From: Xiphias gladius
Taxonomy: Eukaryota; Chordata; Actinopteri; Istiophoriformes; Xiphiidae
DNA length: 64,000 nucleotides
NCBI RefSeq assembly: GCF_016859285.1
Contig: NC_053404.1
Span: forward strand, 13,294,105 to 13,358,104
Reading direction: 5' to 3'
Every line of letters begins with the position of its first letter. The first letter of the stretch is position 1. Positions 37,129 through 62,557 of this stretch are shown piece by piece. The notes beneath the pieces are model-generated. The model ran no database searches. It saw nothing but the letters and a program-made list of their open reading frames with translations, and had not been told where the DNA came from. Made by a program: the position numbers and the translations under genes.

Positions 37129-37551
37129 ATGATGAACTGTATTCTCATCTGCCTGCTATGTGGATTGTATGGTGTTTTAGCAAAAGGTGAGTAACAGGTT
37201 TACTTTCCTTGCTGTAGTACATGCACGGTGCACAGAGCACCTGCTGTAAAGATTTGAGCTTATGTTCATATATTTCATAAGTTTTTTTTAAATACGTAAA
37301 GTTCTTATTGAGTTATTTGTAGCCAAACATTTAGGCTATTTTTTAATTGAGTTTTAAATTATTTTAAACCCGAAGAGGAAACTGTGCAAGTTGCAGCCTG
37401 TAGAAAACTCCAACTTGCGCACAACTTTTGTCATTGATATTATTTCCCATAAATTAGAGGGACGTAAGGGGTTATTAAGCATCTTGGAGCTCTCACAGTC
37501 AGCCTCTTCTGTGGAAGAAAACAAAACACTCACAAATTGCTCTTCGCTGTG

Positions 37552-40500: not shown

Positions 40501-43500
40501 ACAATAGAGGAACCAGTACTTATTCCACTTAAAAGATTTGTAACATTAAACAAGAACATTAACAAAAAAACGTTTTTCCATCATTTAACAGTCCTGTTGA
40601 TGGATTCATGTGCAGCTCCCATCTGATGTCACCATTTTGAGTCTTGTAAAAAGTCAGTTTTTAGCATTTTTCTCCCAGCTTCTTGTAGTCCCAAGATAAG
40701 TTTCAGTTTTTTCATTTAAAATATTTCTTCAACTTTTTACTTGCTATTAATAGTATTTTAACCAGATATTTGTTGCTTATGATTAAGGGGAGGTTCATCT
40801 GAGCGGTCCAAGTTTCAACAAAACCGGAAAAGCAGTGTTTTTTTTTTTTTTTTTTTTTTGCTCTTAAGAGTCTTATTCTCATGTTCTGTACCCAACAAAA
40901 AAAACATCACAATGTCAAAAGAAGCCAAAACATAAGGAATTTGAGTTTTTAAAGAAGACCTTGGCAGCACATTCATTAGCCCACTCAGTGAAATTTGACT
41001 ATCTGGGACACATTTTGAAGAGGTTTCCTTCTTCCACCTTTCCACCTTCATATGGTAAAATAATCATTAGATAAAGGGATGGAGTTCCTATGATGTAAGC
41101 TGAATGTGAATGCACGTAAAAGTTTGCCAAGTGTATTTTAGTTTCAGTCCCTTTTACGTGTTGACCAGGGGTCGCTGGGAGCTGACATGGGCGTTCCCAC
41201 CAGGTTTGGCCAGAGATAAGGTGCGAGTGGAGGAATCTCGCTGTGGGAGGACAAGCCAGCAGTACTGCAGCCGTGTGATGGTCAGCCGCAGCCAGGCCCA
41301 GCACACAGGAACGTTCCGCTGCAGATATCAGCACCGACCTCGAAAACAAACATCTGTTTATGTATATGTCACAGGTAAGACACTACTGCACTTTTTCCTT
41401 TTCTTTGTCTTCTTTTTTTTCTGTATTTCTTTCTCTGAAGCCGTCTTTTACTTGGTCTCGTACTCACTCTTTCACCCCATCATGCTTATTGTTTATATCC
41501 CCAGGTTAAACAGGATGTGGTGGGTGCTAAATACAGACCAATGCCAGAGAGCCAATTATATCTAAACACTGTTTGTCCCAGCAACACATCCTTCTAGATG
41601 ACTCTGGCACAGTTTCACCCCTCTGCCTCTCTTTTCTCAGCCCCAGCCTACCTCCCTGTTGTCTATATATAAATCCTTTTTTACTTTCGTTTACGTGCTA
41701 CCTCAAGGCCAGGAATAGCCCAGCTGCTGAAAGGCTCAGGCCCGGGCAGAGTTTCCCAGGGCATCAGCCTTATCTGCTCTGTTCAGCCTTGCTTGAAGCA
41801 TCCTGTGCTTGGGGGAGGAGGGGAGGGGCTCGAAGGGGGTGTACTGGGGGTTTCGCTGTGTCTCTACAAGGTGGTGGCGGGGAGGTATGTGGAAGTGTGT
41901 GGATGTGTTTGTGTGTGAGAGGAGCTGAGAAGGATAAGATGAAGGCCAGAGGCTCAGTGGTATCCAGGGGCAGAGGAGGCATGATGTCTGCCCAGCCGGC
42001 TCCTCCCTGTCCTGGAGGGTGAGGCTGTTCGGGCTGGGCTGTACCAGGCGTGGAGCCGGGCTGATGGCCCGGGTCACAGGTCATGCTACTGTTTGGCCAA
42101 CAGGACCCTTGGGGGCCATCAATCGCTCAGGTCCCCATGTCCATTAAGCATCAGACTTGGCCTGCAGCTCCACTCAGACGTTGCCTCCCTCCTCTATTAG
42201 GAATCAAAGCAAGAGAAGGAAGCCCTTAGTCTGCTAGTCCTTGGGGTACTTTTGTTCGAATGTTCAGAGATTTGCTTTCCTTGAATAACACCCTACGGTA
42301 ACAAACAATACAGTGAGCAACACCCACACCTTTGAATGGCATAGAACTATTACAGTAGTCGAGCTGGGAGGAGAAAGCACAGAGAGGTCGTTTGATTGCT
42401 TCTAAACAATCTGTGTTTATTGTTAACTACAGGCAGTCATTTGCTGAATGGGTATTCAATGAATGGGTGTGGAGAACAGTGTATGTTTAGGAGTGTGTGT
42501 CTCTTTGTTTTTGTTTGTTGTTGAGATTGATACTTGGAAGTGTGTGTGTTTGTTTGTGTGTCTGTGCCTAGAAGCAGGTGATTTTTTTCTTTCCTTTCTG
42601 TGTGTGCATGAAATTAAAGGGTCGGTTCACAGAAAAAAAAAAATTTAAAAACATATTTTCTAACTCAGTCAAGTGGGTACTTTTTTTTGTATCCTCCTCA
42701 CTTTTAGTATTTCAAGATAATTTTCTTACTAAAATCTTCCTAAACATTGTTCTCTTATTGTAGAAACACCATAGACCAGATGAGAGAAGATCTGAGTTGA
42801 AAAAAATGTTAATAACAATATGCTGTTAATATTGTCTGTAGTTTTGTGTGTGCTCAGATATATAAACTTAAAGGGCTTCAGCTAGTGGTGGTGTGGTGAG
42901 TGCTTTGATCCTTTTTTTGCCCTGGGTTTTGCCTCTGAGGGCCCATACAGACTGCCCTACCTAATTGGTGAAGGTTATTGGGACTTAATGCAGCCTGAAA
43001 GAAATACCCACAAACACTTCTCAGGGCTGAAAAAAGAAACTGCCAAATTAGTTCAGTGGTATAAAATTATGTATTTTTATTTACAGTTGATATTGAATAT
43101 AACAGAACTGAACATCAAACAAAGATAAAATAGTAGAGCACAGCATTAAAAAAATACATTGCAGCATACCTTTCCTGACACTGTGTCCTTTTGAAAAGTT
43201 TCAGTGGAATTACTACTTATTGAATATATTTCCTGAGAAAACTGTCATTAATGACAACTGCAGTTTTCGGTGCTGTGAACACCACAAACATAATTTCATT
43301 CACCCCTTGGCAGGGATCCAGAATTATCAAAAATGAATAGAGCTGGAACAGTTAGTTAATGAATTGATAAATCAATCAACAGAAACACAACAATTTTGAT
43401 AACTGATTAATCATTTCTGTCCTTTTTCAGGCAAAAATATCAAACAATCTGGTTATAGCTTTTTGGGATTTGCTGCTTATCTCTCTTTTATATCAATGCA

Positions 43501-49500: not shown

Positions 49501-52500
49501 GTGCACAGATTTATATTTTCATAGCAAAAGCAAGTTTCATTTTGAGGTTTTCTTGTGTTACAGACTCTGAATCACTGGCAAGGGTGGCAGAAAAATTTCA
49601 CAATTTTTGAACATGAATGATTGCATGTTTCCTCAATTTTAGACCGTCCATTCATCCATCTGAAGCCCAGACATGGAACTGTGATGGAGGTTCAAGCAGG
49701 ACAGAAATCTTACCGAATCTCTCCCAAACTAAAAGCATTCCCTGCCCCTGAAGTCATCTGGTAAGAGATCACATTGATCCCTGTGCCCTCAGATCAGAAG
49801 CCCATGCTTCTGAATTCACATCTCATTGCCTTGTTGGAGTTTAGAGCATCCTCTATGATGTTTCACTCCCCTTTTTTGCCTCCCTTTTTGAATGGCTAAA
49901 TAAAGCATGTCTTGTAAATCTATTTTAATCTCTGGCATACATTACCGGTCAAAAGTGTTACAAAACCTAAATTTAAATGCACATAATTCAATGTCTGAGT
50001 GTTCCTGAAATTAAAGCATAGAACAAATAAACAATTGGAGATTTTAAAAACAAGGAATTTTTGAATTTTTTTTTAACTAAATTTAATCCAAATTTCTGGC
50101 TCATTCAGCAGCCAAACACACTAGTGGCATTTTTTCTACAATGGAAATTAAATATTGCTCCAAAAGTTCATCCCAAGACTGTTGCAGAAGTTCCCACAAT
50201 GTTGCACTTGCAAGTTGCTTTGCTTTCACCTAATGTCCAGCTCACCCCAAACCAGCTCCATGGCGTTTACGTCTGGAGACTGTGCTGGTCTTCCATCATT
50301 TGAAGCCCCTGACTTGTTCTTTTCTTTTAATGTTTTGGGTCATTATCTTGCTGCAAGGTGAACCCCTGACCAACCAGTCTATCTTCCTTTGTTACTTGCC
50401 TTTTATCTCACAATTCTGATAGCAATATAAAGCACTACTTCCTGCAGGACAATACTGTATATTGTCCTAAAAATGCATCAGAGGATGTAGTAACACAGTT
50501 TGTTCCAACACTGCCTTTGTACAGACAGAGGGTTTGTAAGTAATCAACAAAAGTGAGGGCACCTGTAGGAATTGTTTGCATTAACTTTCAAAGCCTTCTT
50601 TGTTTTCCATTGTTGCAGGAAAACTGTAAATTAATCAATTTCTTCATCCCTGAAAAAGCCAGTTTTCTATAAAAATTTGCATGGTTTTTCAGTTTTTGGT
50701 GAACTAAACCTTTTTTTTACAATTGGCAGTTTACCACTTACCATTTCCTAAACTGCTGATATTTCAATAAAAACTAGAAAAATGGGGGTGTTCTAAAAAT
50801 TTTTACCGATTAGTGTACTTTCAGAACCATTCTATTGGAAAAGCCTGATAATGTTTGTTTAAGCAATCAAGAATTATATTTAGTCATCAAAATTAATTCC
50901 TCTACCAAGGAAGTTATGTTTTCACCCATGTCTGTTTGTTTGTTTGTCAGCAGGATCATACAAAAAGTACTGAACCAATTTGCACTGAACTTGGAGGAGG
51001 GATGTGCCATTCTAGTTTATCCTGTAATATTATAATTTAATATAATATTATATTAAAATTATAATTATTTTCTCCCTTAAAACTTTGGTTTACTTTGACG
51101 GTCACACAGAGGTTGGCCTTCAAACTGGGATTCCTCAATGTCCAATCCAAAACTTGTCTCAGAAGACTTTTTTCTGACAGGTTAAAGGATGGCATGGTGG
51201 CAGCAGAGCAATGCTCCCGATACCACATGAATGGGAATTCCCTGGTGATCCGGGATGTTGCAGAGGAGGATGCTGGGAAGTACACTGTCCTGGTACGAAT
51301 CCAGGAACACGGACTCTACCAGAATCTCACCCTCACACTTGTTGTCAACGGTGAGAAACAAGAAATTATCACCCAACAGCCACCTTTAGCTCCAACTGTC
51401 TACCCCCCTCAGTGGTTAAACTTTATGTTTGTGTGTGTTTGTGTGGGCTTTTTGTTTGACAGTGAGTCCTCAGATCGGGGAGAAAGCGGTGTCGTTGCAG
51501 GACCCAGGCTCTGTGCCACGGGGAAGCAAACAAGCCCTGCACTGCACATCCCATGGAGTCCCTCCTCCACACATCCAGTGGCTCTGGCATCCCTGCCCAT
51601 CCAAAGGCCTGTAAGTAGCCCAGAAGACACTGAAGATGAAATATAGTGTGCACATTAGGATTGTGCCTCGAAAATGAAGAGTAGACCATTTGAAATTCAT
51701 GATAGTTTGCACATTGCATATTACCAGCTGGAATTACACTAAATTTCACTATTAAATAATATAAAAATCATTAAATCTTCCTTTACAAAATAACTCAATT
51801 TTATAATAACTAAATCTACCACAGCCCCTAATATAAAAGATAAAATAGATGTTTTGTTTCCCAAAATGCACATGTCAAAACTCACACCAGGTGAAATATA
51901 AATAATGTAAACATGACTATACAGTAATACCGAGTTCTCTGTATTAGTTGTTATTCATTTGACACACCAAAATTTTTAATCAACTCAATACATTGTAAGA
52001 AATTAAACTGTAGTATTCAAAAACAGCAAAAAATGTGAAATTTGTTGATTCGGAGAAGCATTTTTGAGGCTATTAGTTGATATTTATTTTAACTGCAAAG
52101 TCTAAAATTAATATCAACATTATAATGTTACAGACAAATGCAGTACAATAAACTGTTGTTTGTTTTATGTTATTTGGTGGTGGTTGTGTGTGTGTTTGAG
52201 TGCGTGCATGTGTGCGTGTGTGTATGTGTGATTTTGAAAAATGAGACATGTTTTGTCTATTTCAGCATGTGTTCAGACAGAGTTTCCTCCTTGTAACAAG
52301 AACAGATGCCTCTGTGGGCCTTTCATGTGCGGGAATGTGTGAAAATGTGTGTGTGTTTATTTGTGTGTATGCGCCCACAACGTGTGTGTTTCACCATGTC
52401 TGTGTTTACATGTTTGCTTGCTTGTACAACTTTTTCCCCATATGTTTGTTCTCTTATTGTCTATGTGTCCTTCTCCATATGTTTGTGTAAGTGCATAGAA

Positions 52501-52509
52501 ATGTGCAGG

Positions 52510-52585
<76 letters not shown>

Positions 52586-55500
52586 CTGTGTGTGTGCCTG
52601 GTACATTCACAGACACAGTACAGACTTGAAAGGACAGAGAAAAAAACACACTTCAATGGAAGCCAGTTCCGTGCTCTCAGTCACGATTTGTTGGTTTCCA
52701 AATCAAACGCTATGATTTAATGAATTTCCTGTCCAGGACGCAGGGTGAGAGGCCTGTTTATTATTGTGATTGCACACTGCATCCTGTGATGCTTTTTCTT
52801 ATATCTGACACACACACTATATATAAAGTTCTCATGAGAAATGGCCCAACCCAGTGATGCAGAGAGACATTTAGTCAGCTCGCACACATATGAACACACA
52901 CACAAGTACTCAGGCAGGCACTTGGCAGAAACATTGATTGAGTTGTTCTTGGAGGTCAGACACTTATTGTGTTGCTTATGACCAAGTCAGAGAGGTTAAG
53001 TATTACCTGAGAGCACCACAGCAGCCGCCCATAGTCTATTCCTCCTCTGAGACACACTGACATCATCAGTGTACTTGACCCTTAAACCCAGTACTAACAC
53101 GTGGCGCCATGCCGAGGTGCCTCCGATGTGGTTTCATCTGTCCGTCTCTGCCAAATGCCAAGTGTAATCTACATAATGTACCTGAACATGTTTTTGACCA
53201 GCTTGCACTTTTACATTGAAACTGGACAGGATTATACACATTATTCATCCTGATATTCACCTAGAATACCTGCTACATATTCAGACGATATATTTAGATT
53301 TTAAGGTAATAACTATTTTTGAAGTTTTGCCTCTGTTGTACCTCATTATTATGTCACATGCAATCTACACATGGAAGAAAATTTGCAGAGTACCACCTAA
53401 TTTGTGATCAATTAGTTGAATCATTGCCTGAGACTTACATTTCAATTTATTCTGATTGCATTATGAATCAAATTTCAAGTTTAAGTCAACTTGAAAATTG
53501 AAATTTATTTCAGTCTATAAGTAATTACACAACACAACACAGCATAAAAAAATAAACATGCAACAAAAAGGCAGTTACTCCAAAAAAAACAGTGTAGTAA
53601 AAAACAATATCATAGCACAGATTTCTGCAGACTGGGAAGGTATACACTGAAGCTACATCTTATTGCACACTAATATCCCAGCATTACATTTCATTTGGTA
53701 TCTTTACTGACTTACGGTATCACTTTAATTTCCTCTATTTAGTATTCATAAGCAGTATATAAAGATTTAATAAATGGTTTATAACACACTATACTGTTGT
53801 TATAAGCAGATATAACTTTTTACTGTTTAGTGTTTTAAATGGATGATAGTATAGTAAAACACAATTGTAATAATGTAAAATGTGTAATTATAATTAGAAT
53901 AATAATATAATATAATTGTTGAAAAATACCGTATATGAATAAACACTTGAAAGTGTCCATATAGCTGTGTAAAACTATATTATAGTGGGTTATAAACCAT
54001 TTATTGAATCTTTATATACTCACTATAAATGCTAAATAGGGGGACTTGATGTAAAGTCTTACCCTGGTGGACTTATGTTCCTTTGTAAAGCTCTGTTCTG
54101 GTTCTTCTTTAGTGTCTTTAGTGTGTTTCTTTAGACCAGTTTTTGGCTGGATCCTCACTAGGCCCTTGTTCTTTGCAGCCCGGCTGCACCAAGAGCCTGA
54201 CGCCACGCTGGAGGAGGCCCAGGGACAGTGGACCAGGATGGGCCAGGCTGATGGGGGCCTCATGCCTGGGTCCTGGGTCCACTCCTGGGTCTGGCCCTGG
54301 GAACCACAGCGCTCTTATCTGGCCCAGGCAGGAGGCGTACTGGGCTTCCTGTGCGAAAAATCAGAGCGCTTTTCCTCTCGTTGTTTGGCTTCCTCTCCGA
54401 TGCGAGACGCTTCCCAGCAGCGTGATTGTCCCTTCGTCTTCAAACGTGGCACAGTCCGCTTCCTCAAGAGCTTGATCTATTCTTGAGAGCCCCTCCCCCC
54501 CCCAAACTCTGCTGCCCCCCACACATACCTCTCCTACCCCTTCCCTCACCAGCTCTGCCCTCCACCCCAACCCAGCATCTTCCTCCTTTACAGAAGAACA
54601 ACTCCCCATCGCCTCCCACCCTGGAGCCCACCCCGTCCACACACTCATCAGTGCTTCTGCACAACAGCCACAACCCTCAATGACATAACCAGTGATCATA
54701 AGTGATGATCCTGTGCTTGCTAAACTGGTGTTGAAAGTGAGGAAAATGACTTGGAACACTGCTGAGCAGTGAAGACCAGGAGACACAGGAAACAAGAAGG
54801 AAAATAAGCCACATCACTAACGATTTAAGGACTCTTGCTTTACTGATTATTTATTTATTTCCTTCATTTTGCCAATTTCAGTCCTCCCCCAGCCATCCTG
54901 TAGTTGTTTATGCTTTTTACTTTTCACAGACATTTTGAGCCAGAAGAAGTGCAATTCCATCCATCCACCAGCCACATTTCTGGAGCTGCTTTGCTTGTTT
55001 TTTGTGTCCTAGAGTGGTACTATAATGGGTGCATGAACCGCGCCTGTCTCAAGCCCCGATCTGATTCTGACATCCACAAAAGCTGTGAGTTTCTGTTCCG
55101 ATTTTTAGCCACCTGTAGAAGTTCGAAAGTGCTCACCATGGACGGACGAAACAAGAGAGAGGACAAGTTTTGTGTTGTTCACTATGGGATGCCTATGGTT
55201 CTCTATTAAAACACTCAGGTCAGCAGATGCCTACCATGTAGGAAGTCTCCACAGACCAGAGTATATGACTGCCCTCTGTCATATTATGTCATCCTGTGTC
55301 GTCCAGTGTCATCCCATGTCAAAATGTCTTCTGTGTGTGAAATGATGTCAGTATAACAGCCCTGTTGTTTTTGTATTGAAGGTTAATTAAAATCTAAATG
55401 CATGTGTGATATTACAAGCCATTTTAAGAGGATGAGTGCTCTAAGTGCTTTAGTAAAATCCATTTCTGTGTGTGTATGTATGTAAAGCAAGTGCCTTTAC

Positions 55501-58500
55501 AGGAACGTGCGTGCGTGTGCGTGTGTGTGTGTGTGCATGTGTGTGTGTGTGCGCTTGTGTCCCATTCTACGGGTGTCTCCCAATGTGATTCATTCCTTCT
55601 ATACAGATGTTTTATGAGTAATATATGAATCTAATATTTAATAATTTTATACAACTAACTTACATATGACGAATGACAATATTTGCCAACTTTGTATGAA
55701 TCTGTTAAGATGTACTGAAGTGTTATATCAGTTGTTTGTGTTTTTGCATTAAACTTTGCTCATATTTGTGTATTGGTTCATACAGCTCTGTGGTTATTTT
55801 GGAGTTTAGACAGGAACGGACAGGGACAGTATACAAGTTAATTTTAGGCAGTGAAAGAAGGACGGAAGAAAAGGCAGGAGATAACACCCACTGATTAACA
55901 ATTTGGAGCAGTTCATTCATATTTACAGCTTGCTGCTCATCCTGTTGGCAGGCACACACTGTGTCAAAGCGTCTGTGGTGTGAATGTGTATGTAGTCATT
56001 TTCTGTTTCTAACCACCTTTATGGCCACACATCCATTTAACTAATCATGTTTGTGCGTGTGGGTGTGATTGCGAAAGCTTTTACTGGGAAGTGTGGGAGT
56101 GTTAGCTGGTGTAACTCCAGATTGGGGTGTGTGCACGTGTCGATTTGTGCAGCCTGTGTGTATGTGTGTGTCAGACTTGAAGTGTCATGCACAGGGTGGG
56201 TTGCACATTATCTAGATGCCAAGAGGAAGGTCAATCAAGGAGCAGAGAGGAACCAACCTCAAGGAGGTGCTCAGAGCAGACATAAATGGATGATGGCAAG
56301 GATAAAGACAGAGACAGCGAGCAGAAAGGGGCAGCAACACATCCATAAACAGTCAGAGGATCAGTGAACACTGTGGAAATGATAGTTTACAATGAGGAAA
56401 ATGGTTAATGTCTAAATAATGACGCTGTTTTCTTTTAATTATGACATCATTGGATAGATGGATCAATGGATGCATATGTAACCAGATAGATAACCAAATA
56501 GATAGATAAACAAAACACCAACAGTAAACTATCTAACAGTATGTAAAGTAGTTAAAATGAGATCCTACTCCACCAGCTGTACCATTAAAATGCTTCTTAC
56601 ACTTTAAAGTAGAAATATTCCAATAACATGATATACATGTAGCTTATATAATAACGTAGGTCTTTTACATGTAAGAGTATTTTTTCAGAGCAGTATGCTA
56701 CACTGTTAGCCCTGAATTTGTTTCATAGTTAGTTCACCAGATCATTGCTTTTTATTAGCATCTTTGAGTTGAACAGACTTAAGTACATCATTTTTAGCAT
56801 GGACCACTGCCTATGCTCTCTTCACTGTTTTTCATGTGATCAATCTATACCTTGTTATAGGGGGTCTCTCATCAGCAGTTGATAAATTGTGTGGACTAAC
56901 CGAGTTATCTGCAGTCCAAATAAAAGCCTTAGTGTGAGGATTAAATTTAAAATATTAAATTTACAATGATATAAAATGGAAACAGGTTTCCATTTTAAAT
57001 CATTTTAAATTTAATATTTTAGAGTATTGGACTGTTAATGAGACAAAGCGAGATATTTGAAAGCCAAATTTATTACAATGGGCATTTTCCACTACTTTAC
57101 TGACTAAATTAGTTATGGATTCATTGATAAAATAATTGATAAAAGTGATAAAATAATTGAAAAACCAATCACTGGTTTCAGTCCTAAATTCAGCTTTGAA
57201 TAAAACAACAATGAATTAAAATCTTTATATAGATTAAATTTGCACAAAGCTGAAGTTAACGTCCAATTCATAGCTTCCGATTCAGCAGTTTAGAGGAAAG
57301 TTCAGGGAAACTTAACGTACAATACTGAGCCACCAATTCTCTGTTTTTTGCATCACTTGTTGTTATGAAATTGTGTTACATCCTTCCCGATTTCACCGCT
57401 TTTTTCAAATCTAGACCACATCAGACCTGGTCTAGATCAAAAACTACTGTATTGGGAGTTGTCAAATCTGTACTTGATTAACATGGAGACTGTAAAGATT
57501 ATTTAAAGCACAGCTTCAGATTTGTGAAACCTTTATTCTATTTGTAAATACACAAAAAAGAGCGATTCCACTGCTCTTATCACATATAGACCACATTGGA
57601 CCAGGTCTAGGTCAAAAACCACTATAGGCTACCTAGACTTGTCAAATCTAACAAGGAGAGTTTAAAGACTGTTTAAAGCACAGTTTCAGATTAATGAAAC
57701 CTTTATTAGTCTGATGTGGTTATTGGTTATTGATGTTTGTCTATCGTACTGTCACAACACTCCTTTTGTGGCTAGAAATTCATCATAGAGGGCCACATCA
57801 TTTTGTTTCAAAATCCCATGTAGCCTCCTCTCTCTCACTTAAAAACACATAAAATACAAATACAAATAAAATCCTCTAAAATACAGTTACCAACATATTT
57901 ATAGGTTGAATTTGTTCATCTTAGCCCTCTAATTCTTCTTTTGAAACAAAATTCTCTCACCTGTCCTCAACATGACTATGTTCAAACGTGTCTCACTGCT
58001 TCTTCAATAATTACATCCACTATTATTTCAGACCCTGCTCTTCTTCTCCTGCCCACCTGTTGTCTTCATTGTATTCCTGCCTTGACCGCCCACTTGCCTG
58101 CACACATCTCCCTCATTACTCCATTGTCCAAAGAGTTTATAATGTGTATCTGCACAGTAGCCTAGCCATTTGTCATACTGTCTATTGTGTCCCCTAGTCG
58201 TAGTTGTAGTCCTAGTCTGGATGTGAAAAAAGCAGTGAACCCGCCTTTTTTGCGTCTTCACAAATAGAATACAGGTTTCACATATTTGAAAGTGGGTTTC
58301 AAACAGTTTTGAGGCTGTAACATACTTTCACAACAATCTGTGGTGCAAAAAATGGAGAATCAGTCGCTTAGTATTGTAAATTAGGTTTCCCTTAACTTTT
58401 CGCTTAACTGCTAAATCAAAGCTGCAAATCGGAAGCTAACTTAAGCGTTGTGCTGAAATTAAGTAACTGGATATATTGTCATCAAAAAATCCAAAAGAAA

Positions 58501-59696
58501 TGACATTGAGTAATAAATAATAAATGCATACTGAAAATATTTTAAAATGTTTTAAAACATAGTCAAATATACTAAAAATAGAGTTGTTTTTGGAGTCTTG
58601 CAATTTCTCTATTACATTTCTCTATTACATTACATTGAGTTTATCATTCCAGAGTAGTGTAATCAAGAAGGGAAAAGGATGAGTCGAACCCAAATTAGAT
58701 AAAATATACTTGAATATTTCAGCACTACTTAATAACTGTTGCGACAGATGGAGAAGTAGATAAAGTATACAGGGCAAATTCATCTCCTCTAATGGCCCCT
58801 CCCTGGCTCCTGCACAATATCAGTTTTCAGTCTTAAAGGGATGTGTGTAAGTAACCACAAAGCAACTCGAATTAGCAGCAGTTCCCACAGCTCCACTGGT
58901 GTATAATCTATTGATTTACTGACCTCTGCATCCTCCATAGATGAACAATCCAGTATTACATAGGATCCTAAAGATCCACTATTGTCAGCATGCAGGACAG
59001 AGGAAAGAGGAAGTGATGCTATTGATAAAAATGGTTTGGTGATGATGTGGGTTATGTGAATGACAGTGAAGATAACATCAAGCAGCAAGCAGATCAAGGC
59101 GTTTCCCTGGTGTTCTGATCTTCCTCCTGCCGAGCACAGCTGAGAAAAACACACGCACACCTGGAAGCAGTGTAAAATGGCTTGTGTCAACACAGCTGAG
59201 TCCCTGTCCCTCTCCTCCTCCTCCTTCAAGGTGTCCGACGTCCTCCGAACTATGGCGCCCTGTTACAGAGAGTGTCCCCACCAATTCCACATACAACAAC
59301 ATCCTGAGTGTTACTCACAGACAGGAAGTGCTTCAGGGGAAGAAAAAGGTAGGTGAACCACTGGAATGCACACTGACTGAAAGGGGAGCCATGATTGGTT
59401 GGTAAGAGATTTTTCAGACACCAAAACAGCAGTCTGAAATGGATAAACTCAAAGAACTACAGTTTGTCATGGAAAAAGATTTTAGTTGCAGTTATTAGCT
59501 GATTCTTTAATGAAAACTGAACAAAAATGCACCATTCGGGATAGAAGTAGGGTCGTATTTACACATTTCATATTAAAAGAAATCAGGGAAAGTTCAATGT
59601 ACAGTTTCCATCGCTAAATAAGATTAGAAAATATTGCAATTTCATTCATAGGATCATCTCAATTTCTGCTCATATTCTCCTTCTTTGCTAACCTCT

Positions 59697-59946: not shown

Positions 59947-62557
59947 CATAGTGTGCTAAGTGCCGGTTTGTTCATGCGGATGTTTGCACTTTCCACAGAC
60001 AGTGGGGGTCCTGACTGTGGCAGAGGCCTTTGTGTCTGGAGTGTACCGCTGCATTGCCTCCAACTCTGCAGGCACAGACCAGCTAGACATCCACTTCTAT
60101 ATTACAGGTGATCCCACACAAAATTAATCATCTCCTCAGACATATAATTCATGGGTGTTTTTTCTTATGTTGACATCTGGGAATTTTTTTCAAAGCTTAA
60201 ATAACAAATTACAGTAAAAAAAACTATTTTAAGGTCCATGGGCAACCTTCCCTTCCTCCCTTTCTTTCATCACTATCCTCTTACTTAAAATAACTAGTTT
60301 CTGTCTTTCTCATTATAAACCCCCGCAAGTATGTGTAATATATTATTTTCTATTAGCATTTTCTTTTTTTTTAAACAATATGTCATATATTTATCCACAA
60401 TAATGATTGAATAGTGAAAAAATCATAGTTCTTCTGTTTTGTCGGGACTATCTGTTTTAAAATTTGACTCAGTGGAAAAATTATGCAATAAGCTATTTTT
60501 TCAACCTGAAACACAGTCATTGGGCGTTTCCTGCAAAGAACAGATACAAATATTTTCCCTGAATACATATCCTGGAACTGCTCCAAACATTTTTATGTCT
60601 GATTGACTGAAGCAGCACTAACATGGCATGTTATTATGACATTTCATCATGTCATTAATTCATATTTCATTTGTGATTTGCTTTCACACCCATGAATACA
60701 TACATGAGCACACACTCATGCACAGAACTATTATCTTTGACTTTGCTCAGTTAAACTGTGAACATAAAAGACTGAACTTACTGCTTTCTTTCTATATCAT
60801 AGGCAATATTACCAAAAGAAAAGGTGCTTCCACCAATGTCGACAAAAAGTGAGGAGAATGTAATAAATGTGTAGAATTTGCTATGAGGGGAAAATGGGAC
60901 ACTTATGCAGTAGAAGATTGTTTTTCTTAGAATGACCATATCTGTTAGGTAAAGAAAGGTAAAACTGTAGGAAAAAAAAAATAAAGTTAAAGAAGCAGGA
61001 GAAGAGCAGGAATGTGAAGTAAACAGAGAGTCTGGGGGAAAATGATAGAGAAAAGTGTTTTTTCAGCTTGCAGAAGAATAAATTAAGTCCTTACACCTGT
61101 GTTAAGGTCATGTCACTGTTAGGGAGACAGGAGGCGCTGTGTCAGAGACTACAACAGGACACTGCAGCAAGGTCAGTGCACTGCTGGGAGAGTGTATGAT
61201 ACTCCAGAGTAACAAACCTCAGAGGTCAAACTGGAGCAGCTGCTTCCATCAGTGCATCACAATACACTGCCTGTACATTGTTACATTGCACTGTTAGTTT
61301 TATATTGAAGAAATGTAACTTTTTACATCAGACTAAGCACTTTTTGGGGGGGTCTTTTTTGACGTTTTTAAATGGACAGTTACTGTCTTCAGTGGTTTTT
61401 GGTTACAAATTTTGATCAGTTTTTGAGGAAAGAAGTGACATATTTTACAGATCACCAGGTATAAGAACTAAGCTGGATATTTTAAATACTGTAAAATGCA
61501 AATTTTTGAACATGCAGAAAAAAGTCAACTGACACATCAGAAGAACAAAAACAGTAGAAGTATCTTGATGCATGTGGAAACTGAAGGTGTAACACACTAA
61601 ATAATGTAAGTTAAATTACTTGGCAAAACAAGATAGTGTACTGATTCTTGCATTTGTGTGTGTTTGATATGGGGTTAGATTTGTAACTAAGCCTACACGT
61701 TATGTTTTTTGTGTGTATGTGTTTTTAAACATCTGCACGAGTGTGTATGTGCCTGCGCACAAGGCTGTGCTGAGCTGTTAAGTGTGTGAGCAAGAGCGAA
61801 ACAGGAAACTAGGGCTCTTATCGTTCCACTTCCCCATGCAGCGCACTTCCTTGGACTGGCAGGTCCACTTTATTTCGGGAGGCCTTGGGGTGTTCGGGAA
61901 AGATAAACACTATCTGCCATCAGGAAACTCTCGAGCCGTTTCCACGGGAAGGTCCGAATAGCTAAAGTAAATAAAAAGCCTTTTCACTGTATTCCACTAG
62001 CTGCTTTTACCCACAATAGCCATTCAACATTGTCATCAAAGGTTACAAAAGTGGAGGTTTGGTGGAATCGGCTCTTAAAGTGTATGTTTCAGGCACCAGG
62101 GAGGATCCTGACTCACCTGTCAAGAAACTGAGATGGCCTATTCATCAAACAGAAGATCACTGAAGGTTTACATTTTGGTCATGGTCCCGCTCCGTACATC
62201 TTCTTTCCTATCAATCCATCTCTTCATTTCTTTTGTGTTTCCCCTCAGATGTCCCAGGAGGCTTCAGTGTAAGCCAGCAGGAGGAACCAAGAGAGGGCGG
62301 GGACCTCCATCTCACCTGTGTAGCCAATAAGTACCTGTACACAGCGTTGTCATGGCAACGACTGAACAACACAGAGGACATCCAATCTCACAGCCCTACC
62401 CTAAGTAGTCAGCAGCTCACGTCAGGGGTTTTCTCCAACTCTCTGGTCATGTTGCTAAGCAACCTGACAGCCAAAGACTCTGGAGCCTACAGGTGCTCTG
62501 CTCGCCACCTCGTCACCAGACAGGAAACACATCTGGACACACAGGTGGTGGTCACAA
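37129..62557 (+). CDS. flt1: Flt1 (VEGF receptor 1), 5' part: signal peptide to Ig6
   Basis: Receptor tyrosine kinase for VEGF-A, VEGF-B and PlGF on endothelium; in fish and mammals it acts largely as a VEGF trap. Exons: 37129-37186 (signal peptide), 40127-40223, 41169-41374 (Ig1), 43920-44044, 47703-47868 (Ig2), 48003-48139, 49278-49449 (Ig3), 49643-49760, 51181-51350 (Ig4), 51463-51610, 59231-59348, 59999-60107 (Ig5), 62249-62557 (Ig6). Phases are continuous: 644 codons and one base. Matches to FLT1 include LVIPCRVTHPNVT, LNCTATGELNTRVNITW, SPQIGEKAVS and FWHPC-like LWHPC; the NTRV wording favours FLT1 over KDR. The exon pattern equals human exons 1-13. The gene is cut by the window edge: Ig7, membrane helix and kinase are not here. 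Two adjacent ATGs (37129, 37132) could start it. Confidence 0.96.
37187..40126 (+). other. flt1: flt1 intron 1
   Basis: About 2.9 kb, mostly AT-rich. A (TG)n run lies at 37553-37588. I see no exon or recognised transposon. Vertebrate VEGFR first introns often hold endothelial enhancers, but no such element can be shown here. Confidence 0.7.
37553..37588. repeat. (TG)n microsatellite
   Basis: Eighteen TG units in flt1 intron 1. Confidence 0.95.
41375..43919 (+). other. flt1: flt1 intron 3
   Basis: About 2.5 kb. It contains a GC-rich stretch (about 41700-42180) with overlapping open frames on both strands but no in-phase splice sites, and a degenerate copy of a common fish repeat (43335-43640). 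No exon is supported. Confidence 0.6.
43335..43640. repeat. Degenerate interspersed fish repeat (ATTAATCG type)
   Basis: It shows the familiar teleost wording: GTTAATGAATTGATAAATCAATC..., CAGGCAAAAATATCAAACA, GGATTTGCTGC, ACAAGACATTTGAAGA and finally CGATTAATCGAGAAAA. The family is widespread in fish genomes; its class is not certain to me. Confidence 0.6.
44045..47702 (+). other. flt1: flt1 intron 4
   Basis: About 3.7 kb. It includes a 9-bp tandem repeat (GCAGAGAGG three times, 45901-45928) and, at about 46540-47000, repeated GACTTG/ACTCAGTC wording like a known dispersed fish repeat. No exon is supported. Confidence 0.55.
49940..50815 (-). mobile_element. Decayed Tc1/mariner-like transposon
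   Basis: The ends match as inverted repeats: the left starts CATTACCGGTCAAAAGTG and the right, read in reverse, CACTAATCGGTAAAAATTT. A TA flanks each side (49938-49939 and 50816-50817), the usual target. On the minus strand at about 50100-50310 the frame reads RPAQSPDVNAMELVWGELD, the end of a Tc1-type DDE catalytic domain, followed by a stop, so the copy is dead. It is 876 bp and lies in flt1 intron 8. Confidence 0.85.
50898..51016. repeat. Dispersed repeat (ACCAAGGAAGTTATGTTTTCACCC type)
   Basis: Contains the widespread animal repeat wording CCAAGGAAGTTATGTTTTCACCCATG, GTTTGTTTGTCAGCAGGATCATACAAAAAGTACTGAACC and AACTTGGAGGAGGGATG. It sits beside the Tc1 copy in flt1 intron 8. Confidence 0.55.
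52511..52584. repeat. (TG)n microsatellite
   Basis: Thirty-seven uninterrupted TG units in flt1 intron 10. Confidence 0.95.
53717..54061. mobile_element. MITE-like element with long inverted repeats
   Basis: The left arm from 53735 and the right arm ending 54039 are inverted repeats of about 59 bp. An inner block of 38 bp (TATATAAAGATTTAATAAATG...CACTATA) matches its partner with two differences. Looser pairing continues outward (GGTATCACTTTAATTT against the reverse of the right end) to about 53717 and 54061. The interior is AT-rich with no frame. It is a non-autonomous DNA element. Confidence 0.8.
54179..54720 (+). other. flt1: Candidate alternative last exon of soluble flt1
   Basis: A GC-rich island inside AT-rich intron 10, with good acceptors TTCTTTGCAG (ending 54178) and CCTCCTTTACAG (ending 54593). 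Exon 10 ends in phase 2. From the first acceptor the tail would be seven residues (LPAAPRA, then TGA). From the second it would be about 38 residues, starting LRTTPHRL. ATTAAA hexamers follow at 55386 and 55748. From memory, zebrafish soluble flt1 uses a private exon 11 after shared exon 10, which is the position of this island. Two long frames here (54067 and 54143 frames) are out of phase with exon 10. Confidence 0.4.
55505..55552. repeat. Interrupted TG/CG repeat
   Basis: GT-rich purine/pyrimidine alternation, interrupted by GC and CA units, in flt1 intron 10. Confidence 0.8.
56949..57020. repeat. Near-perfect 72-bp palindrome
   Basis: Arms 56949-56983 and 56986-57020 (35 bases each) are reverse complements with two mismatches, around a two-base centre (AG). 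AT-rich. It directly abuts a degenerate fish repeat starting about 57025. Confidence 0.9.
57025..57190. repeat. Second copy of the ATTAATCG-type fish repeat (partial)
   Basis: Shares the right-half wording of the family seen at 43335-43640: TTGGACTGTTAATGAGACAAA, then TTTGAAAG and ATGGGCATTTTCCACTA. Truncated on the left by the palindrome. Confidence 0.5.
57395..57707. repeat. Diverged tandem duplication, two ~130-175 bp copies
   Basis: Copy 1 (about 57395-57537) and copy 2 (about 57565-57707) share, in order, CGATTTCACCGCT/CGATTCCACTGCT, TAGACCACAT, GGTCTAG.TCAAAAAC, TTGTCAAATCT, TTTAAAGCACAG.TTCAGATT and GAAACCTTTATT. In copy 1 TCTAGACC and GGTCTAGA form an inverted pair 11 bases apart. 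Confidence 0.8.
59699..59728. repeat. (CA)n microsatellite
   Basis: Short CA run in flt1 intron 11. Confidence 0.9.
59900..59944. repeat. (TG)n microsatellite
   Basis: About 22 TG units, 54 bp upstream of the acceptor of flt1 exon 12 (59999). Confidence 0.95.
60108..62248 (+). other. flt1: flt1 intron 12
   Basis: 2.1 kb, AT-rich on the left, with no exon and no repeat I can name. It ends in a good acceptor (TTTCCCCTCAG). Confidence 0.7.

Follow-up and report, generated by a model that had tools for sequence, protein, structure and literature searches.

Where in the flt1 gene of the swordfish (Xiphias gladius) could a transcript for a soluble receptor part from that of the membrane form? The question is raised by a stretch of 64,000 nucleotides of contig NC_053404.1 (assembly GCF_016859285.1, positions 13,294,105 to 13,358,104), here called the window, in which an earlier note had described an exon-like island, rich in guanine and cytosine (GC), as a candidate private last exon for soluble Flt1. 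In zebrafish, the exon of the soluble form (sflt1) is exon 11a and lies in flt1 intron 10 (PMC5234075; papers with PMC numbers are cited here for the excerpts available). The swordfish island occupies the same position after exon 10, as the note had stated. It is very probably an alternative last exon of flt1, here likewise called exon 11a, for a soluble Flt1 that would act as a secreted decoy. We infer the use of this exon in the RNA of the fish and its exact 3' end from the DNA, and the secretion of the product and its function as a decoy from zebrafish.

In the proposed mechanism, the exon 10 donor (51611) would be joined to an acceptor at 54179 instead of to exon 11 (59231), and translation would stop after seven new codons. 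The messenger RNA would be cut within the intron at a polyadenylation (poly(A)) site that probably lies near 55770, and a secreted protein of 470 residues would result. It would comprise immunoglobulin (Ig) domains 1 to 4 and a truncated Ig5, lack the transmembrane segment and the kinase, and trap Vegf as a decoy.

Judged by its encoded protein, the host gene is fish flt1 (VEGFR1), since the 470-residue soluble form scores 432.6 bits against VEGFR1 (5t89) in the PDB and 249.8 bits against VEGFR2. A Pfam scan finds VEGFR-1-like Ig domains in the spliced protein, and a tblastn search with a human FLT1 sequence as query places extracellular FLT1 exons from about 40 kb of the window onward. The host is recognised as a fish by the match of a zebrafish flt1 exon 10 primer (17 of 23 bases) and by a beta-globin exon with the fish hemoglobin entries 3bcq and 1spg as its top PDB matches; another such exon matches entries from mixed vertebrates. 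Exons 1 to 10 join cleanly at canonical sites, with 463 codons and two bases in one open frame, which stays open to 642 codons when exons 11 to 13 are added. Exon 10 (51463 to 51610; the flt1 features named here are on the forward strand) is the last exon common to the membrane form and the proposed soluble form. It ends in phase 2, inside Ig5, and is followed by intron 10 (51611 to 59230; 7620 base pairs) and exon 11 (59231 to 59348), the proposed counterpart of zebrafish exon 11b of the membrane form. Retention of the intron at exon 10 was rejected, because a TAA stands immediately after the exon.

Joining exon 10 to 54179 yields a protein of 470 residues that ends in HPCPSKG-LPAAPRA and stops before the transmembrane segment, within Ig5. 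The tail is encoded by 54179 to 54200, read as (CT)C CCG GCT GCA CCA AGA GCC TGA, with the stop codon at 54198. That the receptor would end within Ig5 had been predicted from the phase, and the domain limits agree: PF22971, the Pfam fifth Ig domain of VEGFR-1, covers residues 415 to 542 of the membrane form, whereas residue 463 is the last one encoded in full by exon 10. Of the 128 residues of this domain, 49 would remain in the soluble form, in which Ig1 to Ig3, the domains that bind Vegf, are intact. Zebrafish sFlt1 is a scavenger of Vegfaa (PMC5234075), and by analogy a decoy function may be assumed for the predicted swordfish form.

The assignment of the island is carried by its match to zebrafish oligonucleotides directed at sFlt1. 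The zebrafish sequence compared consists of 25 bases around the acceptor and another 11 bases of the exon. The sequence of the sFlt1 morpholino is printed in PMC4689221, which credits Zygmunt et al., and its reverse complement, TCAGGCCCTTATTCTTTATAG followed by CGGC, looks like an acceptor with the first bases of an exon. We infer that the target is the splice acceptor of exon 11a, because the sequence reads so and because an sflt1-specific primer (PMC5123865, Table 1) contains ATAGCGGC and diverges just upstream of it, as a junction would. The target was compared in register with every AG site of the window on both strands (n = 8374). The site at 54179, preceded by CTAGGCCCTTGTTCTTTGCAG (54158 to 54178) and continuing with CCCG, matches 16 of the 21 intronic bases and is the best of the 8374, the next sites having 15. 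It also leads the 58 AG sites with an acceptor score of at least 6 (mean 9.3 matches, standard deviation 2.1), and among the 450 AG sites of intron 10 it comes first, with a runner-up at 13 of 21. When the morpholino target and the exon bases of the primer are aligned together with gaps, the match runs over AGGCCCTT.TTCTTT..AG and CGGCTG, with a score of 33 at 54160. No other place on the two strands scores above 27, and when the query is shuffled, 2 of 300 versions attain 33 somewhere on the forward strand. A candidate branch-point A, in CTCAC at 54157, precedes the last base of the AG (54178) by 21 nucleotides, which is a normal distance.

Since 54179 had been named before the comparison and ranks best of 8374, the match is strong evidence that this putative acceptor is orthologous to the zebrafish sFlt1 acceptor, and it supports the earlier proposal that the island would serve as the private last exon of soluble Flt1. 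Close kinship of the two fishes does not explain the match, because the intronic bases (16 of 21 identical) are about as similar as the coding sequence to which the zebrafish sflt1 forward primer corresponds, with 17 of 23 bases matching at 51557 in exon 10. This argues for constraint on the presumed acceptor region.

Seven further zebrafish flt1 oligonucleotides, some possibly directed at sequence beyond the window, were compared as a calibration. The exon 10 primer is the only one whose top match is its own exon; for one exon 3 primer, the match in exon 3 (14 of 20) is tied with another place and lies below one at 15. The mFlt1 morpholino matches 11 of 15 intronic bases at its counterpart, the exon 11 donor at 59349. 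None of the other 12 known flt1 donors fits it as well, but a GT elsewhere in the window, at 61172, matches 13 of 15. The best intron match of the sflt1 reverse primer, at 54224 inside the island, was rejected, since 243 of 2000 shuffled primers with dinucleotides preserved score at least as high within the island's first 152 bases. It was rejected also because the morpholino sequence suggests that the primer spans the junction of exons 10 and 11a.

Several observations weigh against the assignment to exon 11a. The passage of PMC4689221 that prints the sFlt1 morpholino does not call it splice-blocking. The swordfish exon sequence past CGGCTG (after a 2-base gap) does not align with that of zebrafish, and the zebrafish tail, of which about five codons can be read from the primer (S-G-W-M-G, given a phase-2 end of exon 10 in zebrafish too), is unlike LPAAPRA. 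The conservation among related fish to which the earlier note had looked is found in the acceptor at 54179, which outranks all other of the 8374 AG sites in its match to the zebrafish target, and is not seen in the few tail codons compared. In addition, acceptors at 54594 and 54930 outscore that at 54179, and poly(A) hexamers occur downstream of the island at background frequency. Finally, high GC content next to a good acceptor does not by itself mark an exon, because intron 3 of flt1 has a comparable island with an acceptor-like site.

The composition of the island is as had been described. GC content is 0.60 in 54179 to 54700 compared with 0.38 for all of intron 10, and the most GC-rich 500 base pairs of the 64 kb start at 54151, in this intron (rank 1 of 1270 windows). 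Taken alone, this argument for an exon is suggestive only. A repeat origin of the island was rejected, as the DNA from 54179 to 54900, in a search that skipped simple repeats, and a 143-codon frame of the island each have a single match in the 690.8-Mb genome, namely themselves. This open frame (54055 to 54486) is not the frame of the 7-residue tail; it shows a mild codon signal and no Pfam family above the cut-off. Pfam scans of four other frames, within the island and next to it, gave no family above the cut-off, the only row being DUF3799 with an E value of 0.13, and an Rfam scan of the window returned nothing at the gathering score. The second GC-rich island, in intron 3 (41601 to 42100), has windows of up to 0.60 GC and an acceptor-like site at 41641 with a score of 8.4; it is perhaps an enhancer.

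The island in intron 10 might itself be mainly a transcriptional enhancer and not an exon, a reading that we consider very unlikely. It draws on the similar island in intron 3 and on an enrichment of ETS-like motifs: 54179 to 54900 contains 11 where 3.1 are expected, a count reached by none of 500 shuffles, and 5 of a stricter motif where 1.4 are expected, which 8 of 500 shuffles reach. However, 6 of the 11 ETS-like matches are CTTCCT or TTTCCT on the forward strand, as would be expected from a pyrimidine-rich transcript, and an enhancer leaves unexplained why the zebrafish sFlt1 oligonucleotide matches in the exact register of an acceptor. The enhancer and exon readings are also compatible, and both may hold. 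It is still less probable that the island is a chance fluctuation of composition with an accidental, unused acceptor. The background rate of the poly(A) hexamers and the presence of another GC-rich island with an acceptor-like site in the same gene are in keeping with such an accident, which does not account for the fact that, of 8374 sites, the one named beforehand matches the zebrafish sequence best.

If the island is an exon, the acceptor has to be chosen among several. Acceptors were scored with a simple matrix and ranked among the 450 AG sites of intron 10. The site at 54179 scores 7.0 and ranks third. The sites at 54594 (8.7, rank 1) and 54930 (8.2, rank 2) stand above it; the earlier note had named the first of these together with 54179 as two good acceptors and had missed 54930. 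In phase 2, the note's 7-residue tail is found as LPAAPRA, and its second tail, given as about 38 residues, has 37. The latter belongs to 54594 (54594 to 54705, stop at 54703), which has a long C/T tract upstream. The acceptor at 54930 opens a 93-residue tail with six cysteines (54930 to 55209), whose stop at 55207 adjoins an ATTAAA.

The soluble exon could accordingly be real with 54594 or 54930 as its main acceptor, 54179 being minor or part of a longer isoform. We regard this as unlikely, though less so than the enhancer. Besides the higher scores, it can point to the unusual 93-codon frame, given that phase-2 tails of at least 90 residues occur at 206 of 8027 AG sites and at 2 of the 31 sites scoring 7 or more. 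The zebrafish match, however, is unique to 54179, and the C-rich tract upstream of 54594 could also be part of a 3' untranslated region (UTR). The 54930 frame has no Pfam match, and codon usage singles out neither frame, with -0.05 for 54930 compared with 0.03 and -0.15 for the other frames, and -0.26 for 54594 compared with -0.28 and -0.47. Splicing to 54179, with the predicted 7-residue tail, is favoured over splicing to 54594, because the zebrafish morpholino target has its best match in the window at 54179.

An acceptor at 54162, opening a tail of 108 residues, is a highly improbable substitute for 54179. Codon statistics are mildly in its favour, being better for its frame (-0.036) than for the two others (-0.22 and -0.33), and its GC content by codon position (0.61, 0.52 and 0.68) has a shape like that of the flt1 exons (0.54, 0.43 and 0.60). 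On the other hand, a fully open frame arises in at least one frame in 202 of 1000 shuffles of the island, and the 108-residue frame has neither a Pfam family above the cut-off nor another copy in the genome. The acceptor ranks 51 of 450, no branch-point motif was found for it, and its AG ends 4 nucleotides past the branch-point A of 54179. The published zebrafish primer, read together with the morpholino, would fit the downstream AG and not 54162. With acceptor, branch point and zebrafish junction all against it, the 108-residue tail was rejected.

For exon 11a beginning at 54179, a last exon of 54179 to 55770 is proposed, with an approximate 3' end set about 20 nucleotides past an ATTAAA at 55748. 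The ATTAAA signals that the earlier note had placed downstream of the island are present, at 55205, 55386 and 55748, and are no evidence on their own, as three in 1.3 kb corresponds to the background given by 112 AATAAA or ATTAAA hexamers in the 64-kb window. The best candidate for the poly(A) signal of the exon is that at 55748 to 55753, the only one of the three followed by a GU-rich stretch (13 of 15 bases G or T), a feature shared by 13 of the 112 hexamers in the window. The 3' UTR predicted to follow the tail from 54179 would measure about 1.6 kb; in zebrafish, amplification from complementary DNA yielded about 1 kb of the sflt1 3' UTR (PMC10299809). The proposed UTR includes two overlapping UUAUUUAUU nonamers, an AU-rich element, at 54847 to 54859, a weak observation in view of the six such nonamers on the forward strand of the window, these two included.

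Compared with known soluble forms, the swordfish candidate is closest to zebrafish exon 11a. The two share the gene, the intron, the arrangement as an alternative last exon after exon 10, a matching acceptor (16 of 21 intronic bases) and the truncation before the transmembrane segment. They differ in the tail peptide and in the exon past its first six matched bases, within the short zebrafish stretch compared; use in RNA is reported for zebrafish, while the swordfish exon is predicted from DNA. The human form sFLT1-i13 is a read-through from an exon and ends after Ig6. It resembles the swordfish candidate in producing a soluble VEGFR1 through intronic polyadenylation (PMC5610261, PMC8390225), but it uses intron 13, whereas the candidate is a spliced exon in intron 10 that would end in Ig5. 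The human sFLT1-e15a is likewise an alternative last exon with its own acceptor, but belongs to intron 14 and differs in position and tail (PMC5610261, PMC8390225). Lying in intron 10, the swordfish island is not at the position of either mammalian form (intron 13 or 14). The poorly studied human sVEGFR1-ex12, an early alternative last exon, is by its name the nearest human form in position and is a different exon (PMC8390225). The device is known from zebrafish, and the proposed swordfish exon is a new example of it. Among the matches listed in a search of openly licensed literature (titles and starts of abstracts), no publication was found that deals with a soluble flt1 exon of any fish but zebrafish, which is no proof of absence.

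At the other end of the gene, the coding part of exon 1 (37129 to 37186) begins the spliced frame that is open through exon 13. Its hydrophobic N-terminus, MMNCILICLLCGLYGVLA, is a candidate signal peptide, as judged by eye. Upstream of flt1, from about 1 to 36500, Pfam domains reveal pieces of an SH3/RhoGEF gene and trypsin-like serine protease genes. The SH3/RhoGEF pieces look like spata13.

The amount of Vegf available to vessels is set by soluble Flt1, and sFlt1 from neurons limits the growth of vessels around the zebrafish spinal cord (PMC5234075). As a tentative and rather doubtful extension, teleosts may keep an old sFlt1 acceptor while the tail drifts freely, so that selection would act on the truncation within Ig5 rather than on the tail; in the swordfish, three strong nested acceptors (54179, 54594 and 54930) would then make decoys with tails of 7, 37 and 93 residues. 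Mammals use other introns, and in this scenario the break point would have moved or arisen separately. The difference in break point between this fish (intron 10) and mammals (intron 13 or 14) can now be answered by RNA sequencing, and 51610/54179 is a concrete junction to seek in other fish. That the acceptor in a second fish has kept roughly the identity of coding sequence suggests selection on the intron-10 decoy.

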